Origin: Laspinema sp. D2d
GTDB lineage: Bacteria > Cyanobacteriota > Cyanobacteriia > Cyanobacteriales > Laspinemataceae
Assembly: GCF_025370755.1 (NCBI RefSeq)
Contig: NZ_JAMXFC010000007.1
Span: 1 to 57,461 of the forward strand
Direction: 5' to 3'
Length of the DNA stretch: 57,461 nucleotides
Part shown: piece after piece, positions 11,380 through 22,006 of the stretch
Position numbering within the stretch: the first letter of the stretch is position 1
How the letters are laid out: every line of letters starts with the position of its first letter
Translations under genes and position numbers: made by a program
The notes under the pieces: model-generated
Told to the model about the DNA's origin: nothing
The model's input: only the letters and a program-made list of their open reading frames with translations
The model's database searches: none

Positions 11380-13278
11380 ATGAAACTTCAAATGAATCGC
11401 TTTTGGGATACTGAAAGTCAAATAAGCGTACCGCCTAAGTTCGCTCTAATCTTATCAATTTTGGGGCTATTGGGGATTGGTTGGATTGCATTTTTATGGA
11501 AATTAGGTAGCGTGGGGTTAGTGGATGAAACAGAACCTTTGTTTGCAGAAGCAGCCCGCCAAATGGTGGTTACGGGGGATTGGATTACGCCCTATTTTAA
11601 TCAAGAAACGCGATTTGATAAGCCGCCGTTGATTTATTGGTTGATGGCGATCGCCTACCAAATTTTCGGCGTGAATGAGTGGGCCGTGCGTCTGCCTTCC
11701 GCATTATCTGCCATTGCATTGATGGGTTTTGTCTTCTTTACTCTGCTCTATTTTACCATTCCCACCTCGGCCATTTCCTCAGAAATTCAAGAACCGGAAC
11801 CCACCAGAAATATCCCTCGAAAAGCCTGGTTTTGTGCCGGACTGGGAGGGGCGATCGCAGCCTTGAATTTCCAAACCATCGCTTGGGGAAGAATCGGCGT
11901 TTCTGATATGTTATTGAGTGCTTGTATGGGAAGCGCCCTGCTGGCTTTTTTCTGGGGATATGCCAGTTCCAAACCCTTCCTAAACAGCGACAATCAATTT
12001 AAAAATTCTCTGCCCTCACCCCTATTAAATGCCGAGGTTTGGTATATTATTTTTTATGGTTTTATCGCCTTAGCCATTCTGGCTAAAGGACCTGTAGGGA
12101 TTGTTTTACCGGGATTAATTATTGGAACTTTTGCCCTTTACCTGGGAAAAGTCAAAGAATTATGGCGAGAAATGAAACCCTGGCGCGGGATTTTAATCAT
12201 CCTAACTATCGCCCTGCCTTGGTATATTTTAGTGATTTTAGCCAATGGTCAAACCTATATCGATACATTTTTTGGATATCATAATTTTGAACGGTTTACC
12301 CAAGTTGTCAACAATCACAGTGAAGCCTGGTATTTTTACTTTTTAGTCCTGTTAACGGGATTTTCCCCTTGGTCGATTTATTTACCCATTGCTATCACCC
12401 GGTTACGCTTTTGGAAACGTAGTCGCTGGCAGAATCAACCCCGGGCTAATCATCTGGGTTTATTTGCTTTATTTTGGTTAATTGGAATCTTTATTTTCTT
12501 TACCGTTGCCGTCACCAAACTTCCCAGTTATATTCTTCCCGCCCTTCCTGCTGCTGCCCTATTAGTCGCCTTGTTTTGGAGTGATGAAAGCTTTAAAAGT
12601 AACCGAGAGGGTAAACCCGAGGGTTTCAGTTTATTTGCCGCAGTTTCCATCAGTGGAAACTTAATCTTATTCTTACTCATGGCAACGGCCCTTCTCTATG
12701 TTCCCCGAATCTTAGATCTAGATCCAGCCATGCCGGAATTCCCCAAAATTTTAACAAATTCGGGTTTAATTGAACGAGGGGCTTTAATTTTAATCGTGAA
12801 TGCCTTAATTGGGGTGATTTTGGTCTTAAAACGCCAGTGGCGATGGATGATGTCCGTGAATATTGTGGGATTTGTCGCTTTTTTCATGTTGGCAGTTATG
12901 CCAGTTTATTTTATCTTTGATAGTGAACGACAATTGCCGGTACGCCAACTGGCTGAAATTATTTCCCAGGTGAAACAACCGGAACAACAAGTGGTGATGG
13001 TTGCCTTTGAAAAACCCAGTTTAGTGTTTTACAGTCATCAATCCATTAAATTTTTTAGGCGGTCAAATAATGCCCGAGAATATTTGCAAGAATTAGCAGT
13101 AAAAAATCCTAATGTTCTGCCATTCTTGGTTCTAGGATATCCTGACAAAATTAAGGGACTAGAAATTCCTAATCCGGACGCTTATCAAGTGATTGCCAAA
13201 CGGGGGAATTATTGGCTAGTGGAAATGCCAAAACAGTTGTTTTTGCCCGATGGAATAGGGATAAAGGATGAGAATTGA
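11380..13278 (+). CDS. Glycosyltransferase family 39 (ArnT/PMT-like) integral membrane protein
   Basis: A 632-residue polytopic membrane protein with about 11-12 hydrophobic helices. The first large loop after helix 1 carries GLVDETEPLFAEAARQMVVT, then GDWITPYF and RFDKPPLIYWLMA. This acidic DE loop and the KPPL motif are the hallmark of GT39 enzymes, which use polyprenyl-phosphate sugars to glycosylate lipids or proteins on the periplasmic face. The soluble C-terminal part after about residue 530 fits a small periplasmic domain. It may start at the second methionine (MNRFWDTES, five codons in). Acceptor unknown. Confidence 0.9.
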   Translation: MKLQMNRFWDTESQISVPPKFALILSILGLLGIGWIAFLWKLGSVGLVDETEPLFAEAARQMVVTGDWITPYFNQETRFDKPPLIYWLMAIAYQIFGVNEWAVRLPSALSAIALMGFVFFTLLYFTIPTSAISSEIQEPEPTRNIPRKAWFCAGLGGAIAALNFQTIAWGRIGVSDMLLSACMGSALLAFFWGYASSKPFLNSDNQFKNSLPSPLLNAEVWYIIFYGFIALAILAKGPVGIVLPGLIIGTFALYLGKVKELWREMKPWRGILIILTIALPWYILVILANGQTYIDTFFGYHNFERFTQVVNNHSEAWYFYFLVLLTGFSPWSIYLPIAITRLRFWKRSRWQNQPRANHLGLFALFWLIGIFIFFTVAVTKLPSYILPALPAAALLVALFWSDESFKSNREGKPEGFSLFAAVSISGNLILFLLMATALLYVPRILDLDPAMPEFPKILTNSGLIERGALILIVNALIGVILVLKRQWRWMMSVNIVGFVAFFMLAVMPVYFIFDSERQLPVRQLAEIISQVKQPEQQVVMVAFEKPSLVFYSHQSIKFFRRSNNAREYLQELAVKNPNVLPFLVLGYPDKIKGLEIPNPDAYQVIAKRGNYWLVEMPKQLFLPDGIGIKDEN

Positions 13279-13508: not shown

Positions 13509-16500
13509 TCAAATTTTCAACGCTTGGTTAATGGAATCGAGTAACTCTTCCATTGATAGAGAAGGGGGTAAAAGTTGAGTGGCGATCGCCTTTAAACTGG
13601 ACCGAAATTCACTAATTGCCTTGAATTCTCCGGTAGTGGCTGCTTCGGGGGTTTCCAAGAAGCGATCGACGATTAAAATGGCGGGGCGTTCCGGAAGTTG
13701 TTCTAATACTTTCAGCGCCTCCATTGGGAACGGAGGGGGAACCGAATCGGAAACATAAATTAACAGCAAATCCACACTTTTATGTTGCAATTGTTGCCAA
13801 ACTTCTGACCAAGAACGACCCATCCAACATCTAAACCCAGCGGTTTGGATATATTGAATCGAAGCTTGTAACCACTCGTGTTTAGTCGCGGTAGAATCCA
13901 CAGGAAAACGGCCCGATTCCCCACTTCCTGAGCGTTTGGAAACCCCCGGGGTGACGGGTTCATATCGGTCCGAAAACTGGCATAAAATCGAGATATCAAT
14001 GGCTAAAATTGCCGGTTTAGAACTCATGCCTACGGCGACTTCTACCGCCTGAAATAGCTCCTTAGCATTGGGCCAAATTGCCTCATTTGCCTGGTCGCGG
14101 CTATGAATGGGTTTGAGATAGGGAAACACGGTTAATCCAGGCACTTGGGAGGCAGAGAGGGCAATTTGGCGATCGAGGGTCACTACGGGGACTGCCGCAA
14201 GGGCGGGATATTGGCTGAACTGTTGGATAAATAGACTGGGGTTGTGGAGGTGAGGGGCGGGATCCAGCAAGATGGCGTCCAGATGCCAGACTCGGGCTAA
14301 TAATTCCGCTTGTTCGAGATCATCGGCCTCTAAAACCCGATAATGATAGGATGCTGAGGGATTGAACCCCGAGGTGAGCAGTCCGTTCAGTTGCTCGCTC
14401 AATCCGCTGCTGTCATCCTCCGGCGATCGCCCCTCAATGTCCCGATATTCTGGGTCAAAGGGACTCAATCGCAACACCGTTAGGGTGGTTTGCGGTGTTG
14501 CCAAACTCTCCTCTTCCGGGTCCTGCATTAACCCCTCTAAAGTTTTTTCCAGGGAATTTCCCTTCACCGGCAGGGTTAAAAACCCATTACACTGCGCCCG
14601 AATTGCCCGTTCTTTGTCCACCTCTGTTGCCATGACGATCGCCGGGATATGTCGGGTTTGCGGGTCCGATTTGAGCAGGGTCAGCACGTCCCAACCGGAG
14701 AGCATGGGTAGGAATAAATTCAAAAAAATAGCCCGAGGTTGTAAGCGTCGAGCCTTTTCCACCGCCTCAGTTCCTGCACGGGCGATCGCCACCCGATAAC
14801 CCAACTCATTGAACCGTTCCGTCAAATCATCAATATATCGCGGGACCGCTTCCACAATTAAAATTAAGCGGTTCTTTGTGGGGGTGGCGCGTTCTGTTAG
14901 AGTCGTCGTCTGTTGGGGGGGACAAGGGGGTAACAGCAGGGTAAACTCACTCCCCACCCCTTCTTTAGAAATAAATGTGACATCCCCCCCATGAGCCCGC
15001 GCAAGGCGCTGGGTTAATGCCAATCCCAAACCCGTTCCCTCAAATTGTCGGGTCATCGGGTTTTCTAACTGTTGGAATTTTTGAAAAATTAAGTGCTGTT
15101 TTTGGGCGGGAATGCCAATCCCCGTATCCCAGACGGTGAAAGCCAGCCAGCCTTCCCAGCGATTCACTCGCAGGCCAATTTCTCCGCCGGTGGCGGTAAA
15201 TTTAATGGCGTTAGAGAGGAGATTGTACAGCATTTGCCGCAGGCGCAATTCATCCGCAACCGGGTTCGGTAACCCGGGTTCGACTTCCAGGGTAAAAGGG
15301 ATTTCCAGTTCGGTAATGGCGGCATTGCTGCTGCTGCCATGAACCGGGGAATCCGAGGGGTGATGGGACTGTTTGGCTTGATCAAAGGCGCGATCGCAGA
15401 CGTCGGGAATGCTCACAGGTTCGAGAATCAGTTCCATTTGTCCACTCTCGATCCGGGTGAGGTCCAAGATGTCGTTGACCACATTCATCAAATGTCGCCC
15501 ACTGGTGTAGATCATTTGAGCATAACGCGCTTGGCGATCGGTCAGGGGACCCAGGGTCCGTTCCTTGAGCAGACTGGATAACCCTAAAACAGCGGTGAGG
15601 GGGGTTTTGAGTTCGTGACTGATACAGGCCAAAAATTCATCTTTGAGCCGGTTCATTTGCATTAAATCAGCATTTTTGGCCGCCAGTTCTTTGGCGACTT
15701 GCTGCTGAACTGTGACATCTTGAGCGAGAACTAACCAGAGGGATTCCGCCTGGGACCCCTCCGATTGGATGGAAGCTGAAACCGGGGGGTGATTTTCCCT
15801 AGACTCGGGTTCGGCTAATTCGGGCCCTTGTGAAGGGTCAAAGGGGGAACCCTGCCAGGACAGATGGGGCGATCGCTCTGACAAAGCAAGACCGATCGGG
15901 ATTTTTACAAACTGCCAAACCCGGTCCGACCCTTTCGGCATGGGACATAACCCTAAGCTGAGAGAGTGGGAGTCGGGGTGTTCTAAGTGGTCCGGTTCCC
16001 GATTCGCGGTGGGTTGTGAGGGGGTGCGGATTTCACCAGAGGGGTCAGTCTCTGGTTCACAGAAGGAGTCAAAGTAGGTCCGCCATGCTTGGTTATAAAT
16101 CGCCACTTTCCCTGCTGATGTTTGCAATTTCATCGGCAAGGGGATTTCTTCGAGGAGTTCCCCCAGGGGACGAACCACCCCAAACGGCCAAGCTTTGACC
16201 CCACTGAGGGCCTCAGCAGCCCCAGAGGGTTGCTCGGGAACTGCGGGGGTCCGGGGAACGAGGCTGGTATTTTGGGCCAAAGCTGCGATCGCCCGAGGAA
16301 AATCCAACAACCCTAAGCATTTATCTTCAGCATCCATCACCACCCATTCTAGTGGCCTAGGTCGGTCCGGATCTTGGGTTTGCAGTCTCTCCCAGAACTG
16401 AGTTAAGCTCAGATTCGCCGGAACCCTCTCCACCGAGACAACGGCTCCCGGACTCAATCTCGCCACAGCTTGTTGCCAGATTTCTAAATCATGGGGTGTT

Positions 16501-16871
16501 GGTGCATCGGGAACCCCTTCCTCATTCTCGCTGCCATTCCCCACCACCGCACAGAAGTGGGCCATCAAAGTTGCTAAATCCGTGTGAGGCAGGCTATTTC
16601 TCTCCTCGGTCAAGCCCCACTCTGGATTCATGGTTTCCCCTTGTAATAAATTCAGGAGCAAACAGCCCACATCAAGGACGCCTACCGGCGCTTCTGCGTC
16701 ATTGATCAGGATGAGGTGCTCAAAAGCTGACATCCGCCCTGCGCTGATGCTTAAGCGATGCCATAACTCTGCTATACTTACCGTTTGCGGGCATAGAGGG
16801 GTCGGGAGTGTAAATTCTTCTAACAGTAGGGGGGTCTTTAACATAGGGAACTGGGGATGAAGATCTTGCAA
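13509..16871 (-). CDS. Hybrid histidine kinase with three receiver-like domains, divergent from kaiA
   Basis: An 1120-residue cytosolic kinase with no membrane segments. In order: two CBS-like modules (about 18-80 and 140-202), a PAS-like segment (about 236-390), HisKA with FLACISHELKTPL (His419), HATPase with N554, DTGIGIP (582-588) and GTGLGLAL (612-619), then three receiver-like domains. The first (about 667-776) has lost the acidic pocket (LILIVEAVP), has Asn718 where the phospho-acceptor Asp should be, and Leu767 for the conserved Lys. The second (about 797-948) keeps an Asp (870) and a Lys-Pro (920-921) but not the acidic pair. The third (about 953-1119) has Tyr1039 at the acceptor site. 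A kinase ending in pseudo-receivers recalls CikA, whose pseudo-receiver binds the clock. Its place next to kaiABC suggests a clock input/output role (inference). Confidence 0.88.
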   Translation of the reverse strand: MQDLHPQFPMLKTPLLLEEFTLPTPLCPQTVSIAELWHRLSISAGRMSAFEHLILINDAEAPVGVLDVGCLLLNLLQGETMNPEWGLTEERNSLPHTDLATLMAHFCAVVGNGSENEEGVPDAPTPHDLEIWQQAVARLSPGAVVSVERVPANLSLTQFWERLQTQDPDRPRPLEWVVMDAEDKCLGLLDFPRAIAALAQNTSLVPRTPAVPEQPSGAAEALSGVKAWPFGVVRPLGELLEEIPLPMKLQTSAGKVAIYNQAWRTYFDSFCEPETDPSGEIRTPSQPTANREPDHLEHPDSHSLSLGLCPMPKGSDRVWQFVKIPIGLALSERSPHLSWQGSPFDPSQGPELAEPESRENHPPVSASIQSEGSQAESLWLVLAQDVTVQQQVAKELAAKNADLMQMNRLKDEFLACISHELKTPLTAVLGLSSLLKERTLGPLTDRQARYAQMIYTSGRHLMNVVNDILDLTRIESGQMELILEPVSIPDVCDRAFDQAKQSHHPSDSPVHGSSSNAAITELEIPFTLEVEPGLPNPVADELRLRQMLYNLLSNAIKFTATGGEIGLRVNRWEGWLAFTVWDTGIGIPAQKQHLIFQKFQQLENPMTRQFEGTGLGLALTQRLARAHGGDVTFISKEGVGSEFTLLLPPCPPQQTTTLTERATPTKNRLILIVEAVPRYIDDLTERFNELGYRVAIARAGTEAVEKARRLQPRAIFLNLFLPMLSGWDVLTLLKSDPQTRHIPAIVMATEVDKERAIRAQCNGFLTLPVKGNSLEKTLEGLMQDPEEESLATPQTTLTVLRLSPFDPEYRDIEGRSPEDDSSGLSEQLNGLLTSGFNPSASYHYRVLEADDLEQAELLARVWHLDAILLDPAPHLHNPSLFIQQFSQYPALAAVPVVTLDRQIALSASQVPGLTVFPYLKPIHSRDQANEAIWPNAKELFQAVEVAVGMSSKPAILAIDISILCQFSDRYEPVTPGVSKRSGSGESGRFPVDSTATKHEWLQASIQYIQTAGFRCWMGRSWSEVWQQLQHKSVDLLLIYVSDSVPPPFPMEALKVLEQLPERPAILIVDRFLETPEAATTGEFKAISEFRSSLKAIATQLLPPSLSMEELLDSINQALKI

Positions 16872-17341
16872 AAATCAGAATGGAGTGTTGAGCTAACGGT
16901 AACACCGAGCCGTAGGGGGTTCCCTCACCAGATACCATTCCATCGGGCTTTTACTCTAACGCCTACGGCATCCGGGTAGGGATGAGATAAATTGGACAAG
17001 AAATCGGGTTTCGTACCTACCTGGGTCCTAGTCAATAGAGATTGGGTGAAAATATCCTGTTTCTCTTCCCTCTACTGTACCGACGTCCTAGGGCGTCCTC
17101 TCTTCGTGGTCTAAGTCATTCGGGATAACCGATACAGAATCACCCGGGAATCAGAGGGTTGGCGTTTGGAGACAACTGCTGATCACGCCAGGGACATAGA
17201 TCAATTATGGATCTCAATGGGGTGTGACCCCGGGCAACCCATTACAATTTAGATACAGTGTTTGTTGAATGTTTAACACAACCTTGAGCCACCAGTCATG
17301 GAGGCGGGGGAATTGAACGTTACGGCTGCACGAGTAGTCAA
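16872..17341. other. Divergent control region between hybrid kinase and kaiA
   Basis: A 470-base region expected to hold promoters for the kinase (leftward) and kaiA (rightward). A possible kaiA -10 is TACAAT near 17244, without a good -35. No open frame with coding character and no known RNA was seen. Confidence 0.4.
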
Positions 17342-18307
17342 TTGGAACATCGATTTTCTAATAACGTTTTGCAAAACAAACTGTCTATTTGTACTTTCGG
17401 GCCATCGGATATCCTGGCGCAATCGCTCACCCAGTTTTTGGAGAGCGATCGGTATGCGCTCACTTATTTTCAGGGAACTGAGGAGTTTCTCGCCTTTGTC
17501 CAACGAGAACAACAACAGCTTGACTGTTTAATTTTACAAGCTCATCCCAAGTTAAAGGGCCTCGCCTATCAACTCCATCAACAATCCACCCTATTGCCTG
17601 CGGTAATTGTCCACCTGGGTTCCCATCAAGCCAGTGAATCACCGGAAGCTCCCGATTCTGACCTCAACGACATCCTGCTAACTTCCGTAAAATCCACAGA
17701 AAATGGGGATTTTGTCTCATCCAAAGTGGTCTACCATACCGCTGAAAGCCACATTTCAGTGTCTCAACTCCCCGACATCAGTCGATCGGTTGAAAAAGCT
17801 ATCACCCAGTTTATTAACTTCTCCCCAGTCTCCTGGGAAACCGATCGCACTCAACCTACCCCCAATTCATCTCCAGACACCTCCGCTCAAAACTTTCTTG
17901 GCCCTCAGCAACGAATGCTCGCCGAGAAATTGAGGGAGCGATTAGGATACCTTGGTGTGTACTACAAACGCAATCCCAAACGGTTTCTGCGGAATTTGCC
18001 TCCAGCAGAACGGCAACATTTTTTAGATGAACTCCAAGCCGAATATCGTGATATTGTTTTGAATTATTTCTCAACCGATGGCTCCCTCAATCAAAGAATT
18101 GATGAGATGGTCAGTACCGCTTTTTTGGCTGATATTTCCGTCACCCAGATTGTGGAAATACACATGGATTTAATGGACGATTTTTCAAAGCAACTTAAAC
18201 TCGAAGGACGCAGTGAAGAAATCCTCTTAGACTACCGATTAACGCTCATTGATATTATCGCCCATTTATGTGAAATGTATCGTCGCTCAATTCCCAGAGA
18301 TGCTTAA
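17342..18307 (+). CDS. kaiA: Circadian clock protein KaiA
   Basis: KaiA stimulates KaiC autophosphorylation by binding the KaiC C-terminal tail. The 321-residue frame has the two-part structure of full-length KaiA. The N-terminal pseudo-receiver (about 14-150) begins [20 protein letters not shown] and lacks a phospho-acceptor. A linker follows, then the C-terminal KaiC-binding four-helix domain (about 205-320) with [40 protein letters not shown] and [20 protein letters not shown]. No ATG is available near the N-terminus: TTG at 17342, TTG at 17369 ([10 protein letters not shown]) or CTG at 17381 are the options; the second puts the first strand closest to the start, as in most KaiA. kaiB follows after 59 bases. 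Confidence 0.95.
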
Positions 18308-18366: not shown

Positions 18367-18681
18367 ATGATTAACCCCAAGAAAACCTACGTTCTCAAGC
18401 TTTACGTCGCGGGGAACACCCCCAACTCGGTTCGAGCTTTAAAAACCCTCAAAGATATTTTAGAGCAAGAATTTGAAGGAGTTTATGCCCTGAAAGTGAT
18501 TGATGTCTTAAAAAATCCTCAACTCGCAGAAGAGGATAAAATTTTAGCAACCCCCACCCTTTCCAAAATCCTGCCCCCTCCCGTCCGCAAAATCATCGGA
18601 GACCTCTCGGACCGCGAAAAAGTCCTGATCGGTTTAGACCTCCTCTATGAAGAATTACGAGAAGAGCGAGAATTTGAGTAA
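18367..18681 (+). CDS. kaiB: Circadian clock protein KaiB
   Basis: KaiB is 104 residues, the standard length. It switches to a thioredoxin-like fold to bind the CI ring of phosphorylated KaiC, sequesters KaiA and recruits CikA. The sequence [20 protein letters not shown], then [39 protein letters not shown] and [14 protein letters not shown] is typical, including the cis-prolines of LPPP. The acidic tail ([10 protein letters not shown]) is also usual. ATG at 18367. It sits between kaiA and kaiC with 59- and 101-base gaps. Confidence 0.98.
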
Positions 18682-18782: not shown

Positions 18783-20345
18783 ATGAATCTTACTAAGCCC
18801 TCTGGAGAAAGCGAAGAACGTATGCCCCTAGGCGTCCATAAAATCAGAACCATGATTGAGGGGTTTGATGACATCAGTCATGGTGGAATGCCTGTCGGTA
18901 GAACAACCTTAGTCAGCGGTACCTCCGGTACAGGTAAAACCCTGTTTGCGGTTCAGTTCCTCTATAACGGCATTACCTTTTTTGAGGAACCTGGGGTCTT
19001 CGTCACCTTTGAAGAATCTCCCAGTGATATTATCAAAAATGCCTATAGTTTTGGCTGGGACCTGCAAGGCTTAATTGACCAAGGTAAACTCTTTATTCTC
19101 GATGCTTCGCCGGATCCAGAAGGACAAGATGTGGTCGGAAATTTTGACCTTTCTGCCTTGATTGAGCGGATTCAGTATGCTATTCGCAAATACAAAGCCA
19201 AACGCGTCTCGATTGACTCGGTAACTGCCGTTTTTCAACAGTATGATGCCGCCTCGGTGGTCCGGCGGGAAATCTTCCGCTTAGTCGCCCGTCTCAAACA
19301 GGTGGGGGCAACCACTATTATGACCACGGAACGCGTCGAAGAATATGGACCCGTGGCGCGGTTTGGCGTGGAAGAATTTGTCTCGGATAATGTGGTGATT
19401 GTTCGCAACGTTTTAGAAGGGGAACGCCGTCGCCGGACCCTAGAAATTTTGAAATTGCGCGGCACTACCCACATGAAAGGGGAGTATCCTTTTACGATTA
19501 CCAATGAAGGGATTAATATCTTCCCCCTCGGGGCTATGCGCCTCACTCAACGGTCCTCAAATGTCCGGGTTTCTTCCGGGGTCAAAACCCTCGATACGAT
19601 GTGTGGCGGTGGATTTTTCAAGGATTCAATTATTCTGGCAACGGGCGCAACGGGTACCGGAAAAACCCTCCTGGTCAGCAAATTCTTGGAGGATGCCTGT
19701 AAGAGTGGGCAACGGGCGATGATGTTTGCCTATGAAGAATCCCGCGCTCAACTGCTCAGAAATGCTTACTCCTGGGGCATTGATTTTGAAGAACTGGAAG
19801 AGAAAGGATTGCTGAGAATTCTCTGTGCTTATCCCGAGTCTGCGGGGTTGGAAGACCACTTACAAATCATTAAAACGGATATCTCGGAATTTAAACCGGC
19901 TCGAATTGCGATCGACTCCCTTTCTGCCTTAGCGCGTGGGGTCAGTAATAATGCGTTTCGTCAGTTCGTGATTGGGGTCACGGGCTATGCTAAACAAGAG
20001 GAAATTACGGGATTTTTCACGAATACTACGGATCAATTTATGGGCGCTCATTCGATTACCGAATCCCATATTTCTACCATTACTGATACCATTTTGATGT
20101 TGCAATATGTAGAAATTCGCGGGGAAATGTCCCGGGCGATTAACGTGTTCAAAATGCGGGGATCTTGGCATGACAAAGGCATTCGGGAATACTCGATCAG
20201 TCAGAAGGGACCTGATATTAAAGATTCGTTCCGCAATTATGAACGGATTATCAGTGGTTCTCCGTCTCGGATTTCAGTAGACGAAAAAACTGAACTTTCC
20301 CGCATTGTCAAAGGTGTGCAGGGAAAAACCGGAGACGAACTATAA
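18783..20345 (+). CDS. kaiC: Circadian clock protein KaiC
   Basis: KaiC is a double-domain RecA-like ATPase, autokinase and autophosphatase that forms the hexameric core of the clock. The 520-residue protein aligns without gaps to the usual numbering. CI Walker A is GTSGTGKT with Lys52 and catalytic Glu77-Glu78 (TFEES). CII Walker A is GATGTGKT with Lys294 and Glu318-Glu319 (AYEES). Arg385 is present. The phosphorylation sites Ser431 and Thr432 (SHISTITDT), and Thr426, are all conserved. The C-terminal tail with DKGIREYSISQKGPDIKDSF and the A-loop/KaiA-binding segment is complete. A strong terminator follows 10 bases after the stop. Confidence 0.99.
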   Translation: MNLTKPSGESEERMPLGVHKIRTMIEGFDDISHGGMPVGRTTLVSGTSGTGKTLFAVQFLYNGITFFEEPGVFVTFEESPSDIIKNAYSFGWDLQGLIDQGKLFILDASPDPEGQDVVGNFDLSALIERIQYAIRKYKAKRVSIDSVTAVFQQYDAASVVRREIFRLVARLKQVGATTIMTTERVEEYGPVARFGVEEFVSDNVVIVRNVLEGERRRRTLEILKLRGTTHMKGEYPFTITNEGINIFPLGAMRLTQRSSNVRVSSGVKTLDTMCGGGFFKDSIILATGATGTGKTLLVSKFLEDACKSGQRAMMFAYEESRAQLLRNAYSWGIDFEELEEKGLLRILCAYPESAGLEDHLQIIKTDISEFKPARIAIDSLSALARGVSNNAFRQFVIGVTGYAKQEEITGFFTNTTDQFMGAHSITESHISTITDTILMLQYVEIRGEMSRAINVFKMRGSWHDKGIREYSISQKGPDIKDSFRNYERIISGSPSRISVDEKTELSRIVKGVQGKTGDEL

Positions 20346-20487: not shown

Positions 20488-20875
20488 TAACGATCTCTAA
20501 CTATATCACCTGTTTGCTAGAATAGCTATAAGTAAAAATACTCCTTTTCTGGAGATTGGCTTGATCCACTGAGGGGCAGGGGTCAGCAGGACTAACAAAT
20601 TCAAGGCTGGGGCTATAAAGCAGACAGAGGGAGCATAACCGGACTGGATATGAGCTAATTCCGGTCCCTTCTGGTGGATACCTTCTGGGTGAGATACCTG
20701 AATATGGGGCGGTTTTGAGGGAGGGTAGAGAGAAATCTTAAAAAAAGTTAAAATTTAAAGGAAATGTTTAAGAGTTGACCTCTACTCTCTGGGATCTAAC
20801 CGGGGGATAGACTTACCCTATATTAATTTACCTCCTTATACTAACCCCCGCTCAATTTCCAAGGCAGTGACACTA
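20488..20875. other. Gene-free stretch upstream of the hypothetical gene
   Basis: About 390 bases between the tRNA and the next gene, AT-rich near 20730-20770. No gene or known RNA was recognised. Promoters for both the tRNA and the downstream gene are expected here. Confidence 0.45.
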
Positions 20876-22006
20876 ATGAATAAACCGATCGCTGGACGTT
20901 ATGCTCGTTATATTCGATGGCCTTCTGAGACCGAAGTTGGTCCGGTAACGTCGTTCGCACAAGAATGGGCGAAGCGGTATGTGCAGAAGCTACATTTAAA
21001 GTCCCAAGGAGAAGATAACGGGAGCGATCGCACTGGAGTGGATGAGTCTGAGTTAATGATGCGGGAACGGGTGGGGGATGCCCTCCGACAGTCGTTGCGC
21101 TTATGTATCGCTCAAGGGTGGTCAAAAACTGAAATCCTCTTAGCACCCAGTTTAAAACAGCATCCCATTGACTCCCAATATCTGAATTCCTGGGAGATTG
21201 CGGCGAAAACCCATCAAATTTATGACCAAGCGCTGGGATGGTATGCTCAGGGGAAATCTCCTCAACAACTGGCCGGGGCCTTGTCTCCAATTTTAGGCAG
21301 ATTGCGACAAATGCAAGCCACCTCGGAACCGCTGACTCTGGCCTTTGTCAATCTGCAATTTTACTATACTGGGCAGTTGCTGTTGCAGCAGGTTTCCCAA
21401 ACGGAGCGATCGCAACTGGAAGGGTATTTTAGCGTGATTCAGGAATACTTAAATTTACCCCTACAACGGGTCTATGAAGCAGCCGCAAAATTAGAATGGG
21501 ATGACACTCCCTTGCAGGCGGTGAGAAAGCTGCTGCCGGTGAGCTCGGAAATGGCTACGGAAATATGCGATCGCATTCGCCAACTCTATCCCCGCTACCG
21601 CAGTAACAGCGGTTCCCTGACTGATGAACGCATCTACAAATCTAGCTTACGCGATGTGGAGATGTTCCAAGTCTATCTCTGGGCTTGTGTGCTAGAACAA
21701 AGTATTGCCTCGGTACAACAGGAGTTATTTCCCCTCTGTGTGATGCTTTATCCGTCCTTGGGGGTTGAGTGGGAATTAGTTAGGCAAATGCTCAATCTGT
21801 TAGGACAACAGTTGCGCGATCGGCTCACATCAGAAGAGTACGATTTATTTGTTCCCTACTTGCGCACTATGTGGGAGATGTTTTCTCCGGCAGTTTTCTC
21901 CCCCACAGATAAATCAGGTAAATCCGACAAATCGCAGGCGATCGCCCTTGAATCCGAGGACTTTTTTGATTCCAGTGAATCCTTGGGGAATTGGGTTGTG
22001 GGGTAG
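20876..22006 (+). CDS. Conserved cyanobacterial protein of unknown function, kai-adjacent
   Basis: A 376-residue protein from the ATG at 20876 (MNKPIAGRYARYIRWPSETE); a GTG nine bases upstream is an alternative. It looks helical and soluble, with no membrane segment or signal peptide. Helical stretches carry WAKRYVQKLHLKSQ, EIAAKTHQIYDQALGWYAQG and VYLWACVLEQSIASVQQELF. The C-terminal ~35 residues are acidic and serine-rich and probably disordered. I do not recognise a domain. It follows the kai cluster and tRNA on the same strand, but the strong terminator after kaiC makes co-transcription unlikely. Confidence 0.75.
   Translation: MNKPIAGRYARYIRWPSETEVGPVTSFAQEWAKRYVQKLHLKSQGEDNGSDRTGVDESELMMRERVGDALRQSLRLCIAQGWSKTEILLAPSLKQHPIDSQYLNSWEIAAKTHQIYDQALGWYAQGKSPQQLAGALSPILGRLRQMQATSEPLTLAFVNLQFYYTGQLLLQQVSQTERSQLEGYFSVIQEYLNLPLQRVYEAAAKLEWDDTPLQAVRKLLPVSSEMATEICDRIRQLYPRYRSNSGSLTDERIYKSSLRDVEMFQVYLWACVLEQSIASVQQELFPLCVMLYPSLGVEWELVRQMLNLLGQQLRDRLTSEEYDLFVPYLRTMWEMFSPAVFSPTDKSGKSDKSQAIALESEDFFDSSESLGNWVVG

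Follow-up and report, generated by a model that had tools for sequence, protein, structure and literature searches.

A gene for a kinase-like protein that ends in three pseudo-receivers stands divergent from kaiA in the cyanobacterium Laspinema sp. D2d, and it is found at the same place beside kaiA in most cyanobacterial families where this locus was read. The gene lies in contig NZ_JAMXFC010000007.1 (assembly GCF_025370755.1), positions 1 to 57,461; this whole stretch of 57,461 nucleotides is called the window below. The protein consists, in order, of a CBS pair, a PAS-like segment, a HisKA–HATPase_c core and the first to third pseudo-receivers (PsR1, PsR2 and PsR3). Its architecture, its conservation, its linkage to kaiA, its pattern of loss and a conserved face on its pseudo-receivers are established here. 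The protein may be a clock-associated, CikA-like sensor or scaffold that signals via its pseudo-receivers, and we judge the chances of this to be even.

Distribution and linkage to kaiA

Among 292 genomes drawn across the phylum, 121 have kaiA. A profile of PsR2 finds exactly one copy of the kinase-like gene in each of 81 genomes and none in the others at a threshold of 1e-8. All but one of the gene-bearing genomes (80 of 81) have kaiA, and a single genome of the 171 without kaiA has the gene (Fisher p ~1e-39, uncorrected for phylogeny).

Linkage was read from 100 kaiA loci, fetched from 99 of the 121 kaiA genomes, and from 20 further loci found by the kinase. In 68 of the kaiA-selected loci a divergent family member is present upstream of kaiA, at most 4 kb away, and the gap between kinase and kaiA is below 1 kb in 63 of these 68. 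Of the 20 kinase-selected loci, 19 also show divergent linkage; the remaining one (L177) starts at a contig end. The gene divergently adjoins kaiA in 73 of the 81 gene-bearing genomes. These are the window's own genome, the 68 direct cases, two genomes placed by coordinates (G179 and G247), one with an N-terminal piece of the gene next to kaiA, where the contig ends (G097), and one where a pseudogene occupies the place (G147).

A contig scan with the kinase sequence, and not with kai genes, fetched 80 loci, nine of which proved to hold orthologs. These nine come from Lyngbya, Anabaena, Kamptonema, Nodularia, Okeania, Nostoc, Chlorogloeopsis, Chrysosporum and Rivularia, and all nine adjoin kaiABC. 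A preliminary description of this DNA had staked its clock proposal on the gene being conserved beside kaiABC in related genomes, and conserved it is. With 73 of 81 genomes linked, together with all nine named orthologs, the link to the clock has far more behind it than a position in a single genome would give.

The fetched kaiA loci represent 29 taxonomic families, and the gene adjoins kaiA in 21 of them. Second in retention comes a PMT_2-type glycosyltransferase gene, kept in eight families (30 of the 100 kaiA-selected loci). Its family relates to a window gene at 11380–13278, with 45% identity.

Layout of the gene and its protein

The features of the locus are as follows, with residues numbered from the TTG start.

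13509–16871, minus strand: kinase-like gene, TTG start, 1120 amino acids, in the order CBS pair, PAS-like segment, HisKA, HATPase, PsR1, PsR2, PsR3 (open reading frame, Pfam, family alignment)
16844, minus strand: alternative ATG start at codon 10, giving 1111 amino acids
16227–16844, minus strand: CBS pair, residues ~10–215 (Pfam in relatives, fold matches, left-out profile)
15696–16196, minus strand: PAS-like segment, residues ~226–392 (family profile, sequence pattern by eye)
14928–15644, minus strand: HisKA (His419, HELKT box) and HATPase_c core, residues 410–648 (Pfam)
14514–14882, minus strand: PsR1, residues 664–786 (Pfam Response_reg, model, alignment)
14016–14489, minus strand: PsR2, residues 795–952, the family hallmark, with the consensus RVLEADDLEQAELLARVW ... 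VFPCL
13512–14018, minus strand: PsR3, residues 952–1120 (profile comparison, model)
16845–17341, no strand: region between the kinase ATG and the start of the kaiA reading frame, with blocks conserved across the window and six congeners
17342–18307, plus strand: kaiA, full length, with its N-terminal pseudo-receiver present (PF07688, PF21714)
18367–18681, plus strand: kaiB (Pfam/NCBIfam)
18783–20345, plus strand: kaiC (Pfam/NCBIfam)

Open reading frame, Pfam, model and profiles all bear out the preliminary description in seeing here a soluble kinase, divergent from kaiA, with three receiver-like domains. Its span of 13509–18307 holds for the kinase but also takes in kaiA, which is a gene of its own on the opposite strand.

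In the window protein Pfam recognizes HisKA, HATPase_c and, of the receivers, only the first. All of 38 representative relatives have matches to HisKA and HATPase_c, 33 of them also to a receiver and 14 to CBS. The catalytic motifs within residues 410–648 (the histidine and the N, G1, F and G2 boxes) are intact in the window protein, which thus counts as a histidine kinase. The best NCBIfam match is HrmK, with 280.7 bits against a cut-off of 725, and all 25 matches listed fall far under their cut-offs. Pfam finds no DNA-binding domain in the window protein; one of the 38 relatives has a marginal HTH_51 match (0.0089).

The N-terminal model (mean predicted local distance difference test score, pLDDT, 65) matches CBS-pair structures, e.g. 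MJ0922, MgtE and CBSX2. Pfam does not recognize CBS in the window protein itself, and the assignment comes from relatives and from these fold matches. They agree with the CBS-like character first proposed, and are best read as one CBS pair rather than the two modules then described. The PAS-like segment was assigned from a pattern read by eye and from the family profile, and much of that region of the model is of low confidence; Pfam finds no PAS family among the 38 relatives at an expectation value (E) of 0.01, nor in the window protein.

Past the kinase, the window gene at 11380–13278 (plus strand) encodes a PMT_2-like membrane glycosyltransferase. Downstream of kaiC, a gene at 20867–22006 (plus strand) has a Pfam Phycobilisome-domain match of 25.9 bits (cut-off 22.2). 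One congener (L162) has an insertion of ~1.3 kb between kinase and kaiA that by eye resembles a TnpB-type transposon gene.

Three receiver folds without phospho-chemistry

Modelling of residues 662–1120 (the window protein with the nine named relatives) yields three successive alternating beta–alpha units, with a mean pLDDT of 68. Receiver proteins, PleD and DivK among them, are the top matches of this C-terminal model in the Protein Data Bank (PDB). Profiles of the three domains match a set of 127 other receivers at 6e-33 (PsR1), 4e-9 (PsR2) and 2e-9 (PsR3), the set itself having been gathered with the PsR1 profile. PsR3 is detected in 61 of 87 family members by a profile built from those members.

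The residues that the preliminary description had picked out (His419, Asn718, Leu767, Asp870, Lys920 and Tyr1039) are all present in the translation. PsR1 has Asn718 at the acceptor Asp site and Leu767 in place of Lys, and it has lost the second acidic residue. Of 89 aligned rows, 77 have Asn at the acceptor site and five have Asp, and 71 have Leu at the Lys position. This alignment includes L160, an unrelated kinase of 1349 amino acids lying 3.4 kb from a short kaiA, which was later excluded from the family counts. PsR3 departs from the active-site pattern by Tyr1039. PsR2 of the window protein does keep Asp870 and Lys920, but strand 1 has no acidic pair, and the position of Lys920 is Lys in only four of the 89 rows. 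Lys920 is therefore a local quirk and PsR2 is also a pseudo-receiver; the idea that the second receiver alone is still functional was rejected on these grounds. Thus, across the family, all three receivers are without the full set of residues for phospho-chemistry. By the definition in the available part of one review, a pseudo-receiver lacks any one of five active-site residues (DD, D, T and K; PMC12632262), and PsR1, PsR2 and PsR3, each a receiver fold with one or more residues missing, all fit it.

Two kinships for these domains were considered. One, which was rejected, was that the KaiA N-domain derives from a receiver of this kinase. PsR1, PsR2 and PsR3 match KaiA_N at E values of 0.0045–0.093, more weakly than generic receivers do (4e-4). 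The other, which found no support, was a specific kinship with the CikA pseudo-receiver, which is closer to the generic set (9e-36) than to PsR1 (7e-19), PsR2 (3e-6) or PsR3 (9e-5). When PsR2 was compared with solved structures, 24 weak matches to response regulators, receivers and receiver fusions were obtained, with neither CikA nor KaiA chains among them up to an E of 10. Of the two comparisons suggested earlier, the one with the KaiA N-domain brought out no special relation and the one with CikA holds for the conserved face only.

A conserved face shared with CikA

Conservation in PsR1 peaks at beta2 (2.74 bits) and alpha2 (2.75 bits), vs 1.22 and 1.21 bits in the 127 generic receivers. 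The best-conserved part of PsR2, residues 844–865, is likewise beta2–alpha2. The CikA pseudo-receiver binds KaiB via alpha1–beta2–alpha2, according to the available part of PMC12632262.

A face ratio was calculated as the conservation of alpha1–beta2–alpha2 over that of alpha4–beta5–alpha5. It is 1.45 for PsR1 (bootstrap 1.31–1.45) and 1.41 for the CikA pseudo-receiver (1.24–1.40), vs 0.78 (0.76–0.87) for receivers of another hybrid-kinase family, 0.77 (0.75–0.87) for 34 random generic receivers and 0.70 for all 127; the intervals are only a rough guide, since the observed PsR1 and CikA values top their bootstrap ranges. The PsR1 value comes from 34 of 41 non-redundant loci, those left out being L160 and six with PsR1 absent or very degenerate (L071, L072, L073, L086, L113 and L120). 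For CikA, 15 of 19 sequences were used, four near-duplicates having been dropped, and for the hybrid kinases 26 of 30 loci, whose matches reach the receiver. Judged by sequence, the likeness between PsR1 and the CikA pseudo-receiver is one of surface use, not of descent.

Erosion of the ATP-binding motifs

Profiles trained on the 72 closest sequences were tested on 16 divergent members that had been left out. CBS and PsR2 are detected in all 16, PsR1 in 13 and the PAS-like segment in 12. The three members with no detectable PsR1 are L071, L113 and L120, and their ATPase motifs are also eroded.

All 88 rows keep the phospho-histidine (His419); Glu420 is retained in 85 of them and the N-box Asn in 84. 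Severe erosion of the ATP-binding motifs is seen in five loci (L071, L073, L086, L113 and L120), which represent four taxonomic families, and six further rows have one or two changes in these motifs. HATPase_c gives no match at E 1 in L113 and L120 and a partial one in L071; in L073 and L086 it is still recognizable, with altered motifs. Kinase chemistry therefore looks dispensable in the five loci, and the probable loss of ATP hydrolysis there has left the histidine dimer domain, the CBS pair and PsR2 in place. Two more genomes of the genus of L073 show the same erosion. L073 is Thermosynechococcus-like: its KaiA is almost identical to PDB entry 5jwr, presumably from Thermosynechococcus.

Pseudo-receiver loss in KaiA and CikA

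The CikA set is the single-copy GAF-kinase family that contains a gene of the window's own genome (G000:C17:67279-69735). The C-terminus of a member matches PDB entries 5jyu and 5jyv, structures of the CikA pseudo-receiver. A search of 117 genomes gave 40 with a match, and 30 loci were read. The CikA pseudo-receiver is kept in 19 of these and lost in 11.

In 10 of the 11 genomes with CikA so shortened, KaiA also has no room for its pseudo-receiver (open frames of at most 202 amino acids). None of the 18 genomes that keep the CikA pseudo-receiver and have kaiA shows a short KaiA. All 11 carry the kinase-like protein with PsR1, PsR2 and PsR3. There are thus ten sampled genomes where KaiA and CikA are both without pseudo-receivers and the kinase-like protein keeps all three. 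The 11 genomes belong to three taxonomic families, so this pattern represents two or three events, not eleven.

The remaining genome, G062, is an exception, its CikA being without a pseudo-receiver and its KaiA not. Locus L158 (G070:C58) has a second, short KaiA-like C-terminal domain adjoining a kinase of 1455 amino acids, and the start of this kinase is CBS-like by eye.

Proposed function and alternatives

From the linkage, the co-occurrence with kaiA and the loss pattern we infer a role in the clock. The preliminary description had suggested a clock input or output protein; linkage and conservation speak for that suggestion in part, and the role itself is put forward here as a proposal. The CBS pair, with the PAS-like segment in most members, would sense some internal state. 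The most likely one is an adenine nucleotide or some other measure of energy status, a guess at the ligand that is based on CBS domains at large. The HisKA dimer would relay the sensed state. Output would come from the pseudo-receivers, acting as binding domains and not as phosphate acceptors. Comparison of faces points to KaiB as the partner, and the likeliest surface would be alpha1–beta2–alpha2 of PsR1, along with beta2–alpha2 of PsR2, i.e. the face with which CikA captures KaiB. With such a shared face, the protein would tune or read the KaiABC oscillator in parallel to CikA and SasA. Members with an intact ATPase, the window protein among them, probably act on a response regulator as well, phosphorylating or dephosphorylating it; this target would be a separate protein because none of the kinase-like protein's own receivers keeps the phosphate-taking residues.

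Several findings weigh against this proposal. The gene is absent from 41 of the 121 kaiA genomes, so the oscillator can do without it. Eight of the 81 gene-bearing genomes show no linkage to kaiA. In six (G105, G111, G123, G157, G203 and G262) the gene is unlinked within the available 3–7 kb upstream of kaiA, and in G207, counted here, the contig ends before linkage can be decided. The eighth, G255, keeps kaiBC and has the gene elsewhere in the genome, and no kaiA was found in it. In two genomes, G241 and G085, KaiA is short and no family member is present, so a lost KaiA pseudo-receiver is not replaced by this gene in every case. The face ratio of PsR2 is 0.96, and 1.21 for beta2–alpha2 alone. 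Just two receiver sets served as controls for the ratio, the generic one being that gathered with PsR1. PsR1 and the CikA pseudo-receiver each match generic receivers better than each other, and the conserved face could instead dock inside its own protein.

That last possibility leads to an alternative that we hold to be rather unlikely. The protein might be a conventional sensor kinase or phosphatase for a separate regulator (e.g. the clock output regulator RpaA), with the pseudo-receivers as autoinhibitory lids whose conserved face packs on the protein's own core. The retention of His419, Glu420 and the N-box Asn fits such a kinase, as does the failure to detect PsR1 in L071, L113 and L120, where the ATPase motifs are eroded. 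The CikA pseudo-receiver is reported to inhibit autophosphorylation (PMC12632262, in the part available). However, lineages with eroded ATP motifs, from four families, keep the gene beside kaiA, complete with CBS and PsR2, as would not be expected of a pure kinase.

It is unlikely, and somewhat more so, that the gene is linked to kaiA without any function in the clock. A shared divergent promoter region and co-inheritance would then hold the two together, and the protein would serve some other energy or redox response. The intergenic region is indeed shared and has conserved blocks, the gene survives unlinked in six genomes and without kaiA in G255, and 41 kaiA genomes manage without it. On the other hand, other neighbours are kept in at most eight families, vs 21 for this gene, and only one genome without kaiA has it. 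Three genomes whose clock genes are lost or damaged also lack the gene or have it in pieces. In G039 there is no kaiA, free-standing kaiB, circadian kaiC over the cut-off or family member, and a single assembly gap could account for all of these. In G159 the kaiA match has internal stops, and no remnant of the kinase is found on the short contig. G147 is the third such genome, and G091 shows the opposite, its KaiA match having internal stops and its kinase being intact. At the G147 locus (L286) the kinase is in pieces, kaiB is in two frames, and kaiA and kaiC are open; the clock of this organism is possibly decaying.

That the partner is KaiA or KaiC rather than KaiB, or that the protein controls kaiA transcription or stability, is suggested by the position beside kaiA but is improbable, as G255 speaks against KaiA as sole partner, the Pfam results on DNA-binding domains against transcriptional control, and the match to the CikA–KaiB surface against a partner other than KaiB.

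Implications for the clock

The mechanism of the cyanobacterial clock has been worked out largely in Synechococcus elongatus. Genome G036 (locus L106), the single close relative of S. elongatus covered by the analysis, has no match to the PsR2 profile and thus lacks the gene; its KaiA closely matches PDB entry 1r8j, S. elongatus KaiA. A gene kept beside kaiA in so many families would, if the proposal of a clock-associated sensor or scaffold is true, be a missing input or output component, and would provide an energy-sensing route into the oscillator. It could also explain how Nostoc-type clocks run without the pseudo-receivers of KaiA and CikA. With this gene, a component of the bacterial clock may have been overlooked.

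A bolder version can be offered tentatively, and we doubt it more than we believe it. The protein would be ancient in cyanobacteria and third among the kinase-like proteins that bind Kai. PsR1 would dock fold-switched KaiB by a CikA-type face, and the CBS pair would couple the oscillator to energy charge. Signalling would be independent of phosphotransfer, some lineages having lost the kinase chemistry, and in Nostoc-type clocks the pseudo-receivers of this protein would be the only ones among KaiA, CikA and itself. The sampled S. elongatus lineage is missing the gene, and if this version is true the standard clock would describe a reduced one.

Two established systems of clock research have orthologs, Thermosynechococcus for biochemistry (presumably tll0480) and Nostoc for genetics (presumably All2883). 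A literature search by term met all2883 solely among predicted CRP targets, tabulated in a source available in part, and did not meet tll0480. A keyword search found no description of the gene, much subscription literature being outside its reach. There is no mention of it in the available parts of a survey of clock factors (PMC5520375), a study of two Kai systems (PMC11372060) and a clock review (PMC7766417), and none of the terms looked up is present in the available part of a paper on kaiA evolution (PMC8113500).

Comparison with known systems

Hybrid histidine kinases of the HrmK, TorS and ArcB type have the same order of HisKA, HATPase and receiver. Unlike these phosphorelay kinases, the kinase-like protein has no receiver that combines an acceptor Asp, an acidic pair and Lys. 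The N-terminal pseudo-receiver of KaiA is also a receiver fold without a phospho-acceptor, encoded at the same locus, but PsR1, PsR2 and PsR3 show no profile similarity to it beyond that of other receivers. SasA is a histidine kinase tied to the Kai oscillator, with a KaiB-like N-domain. It has no receiver, whereas the kinase-like protein has no KaiB domain detectable by Pfam. Compared with bacterial pseudo-receivers in general, the family differs in that a single kinase-like protein, bound to a single locus, carries a chain of two or three.

The protein is not the CikA ortholog, as a separate CikA family is present in the window's own genome (G000:C17). It differs from CikA in having a CBS pair and PAS-like segment in place of GAF: Pfam gives no GAF match in the window protein at E up to 1, and finds GAF in both CikA-family proteins scanned. 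It also differs in having two or three pseudo-receivers, with no specific sequence kinship to that of CikA, and a gene beside kaiA. What the two have in common is a HisKA–HATPase core followed by a pseudo-receiver with alpha1–beta2–alpha2 as its most conserved part, in a kinase-like protein that is linked to the clock.

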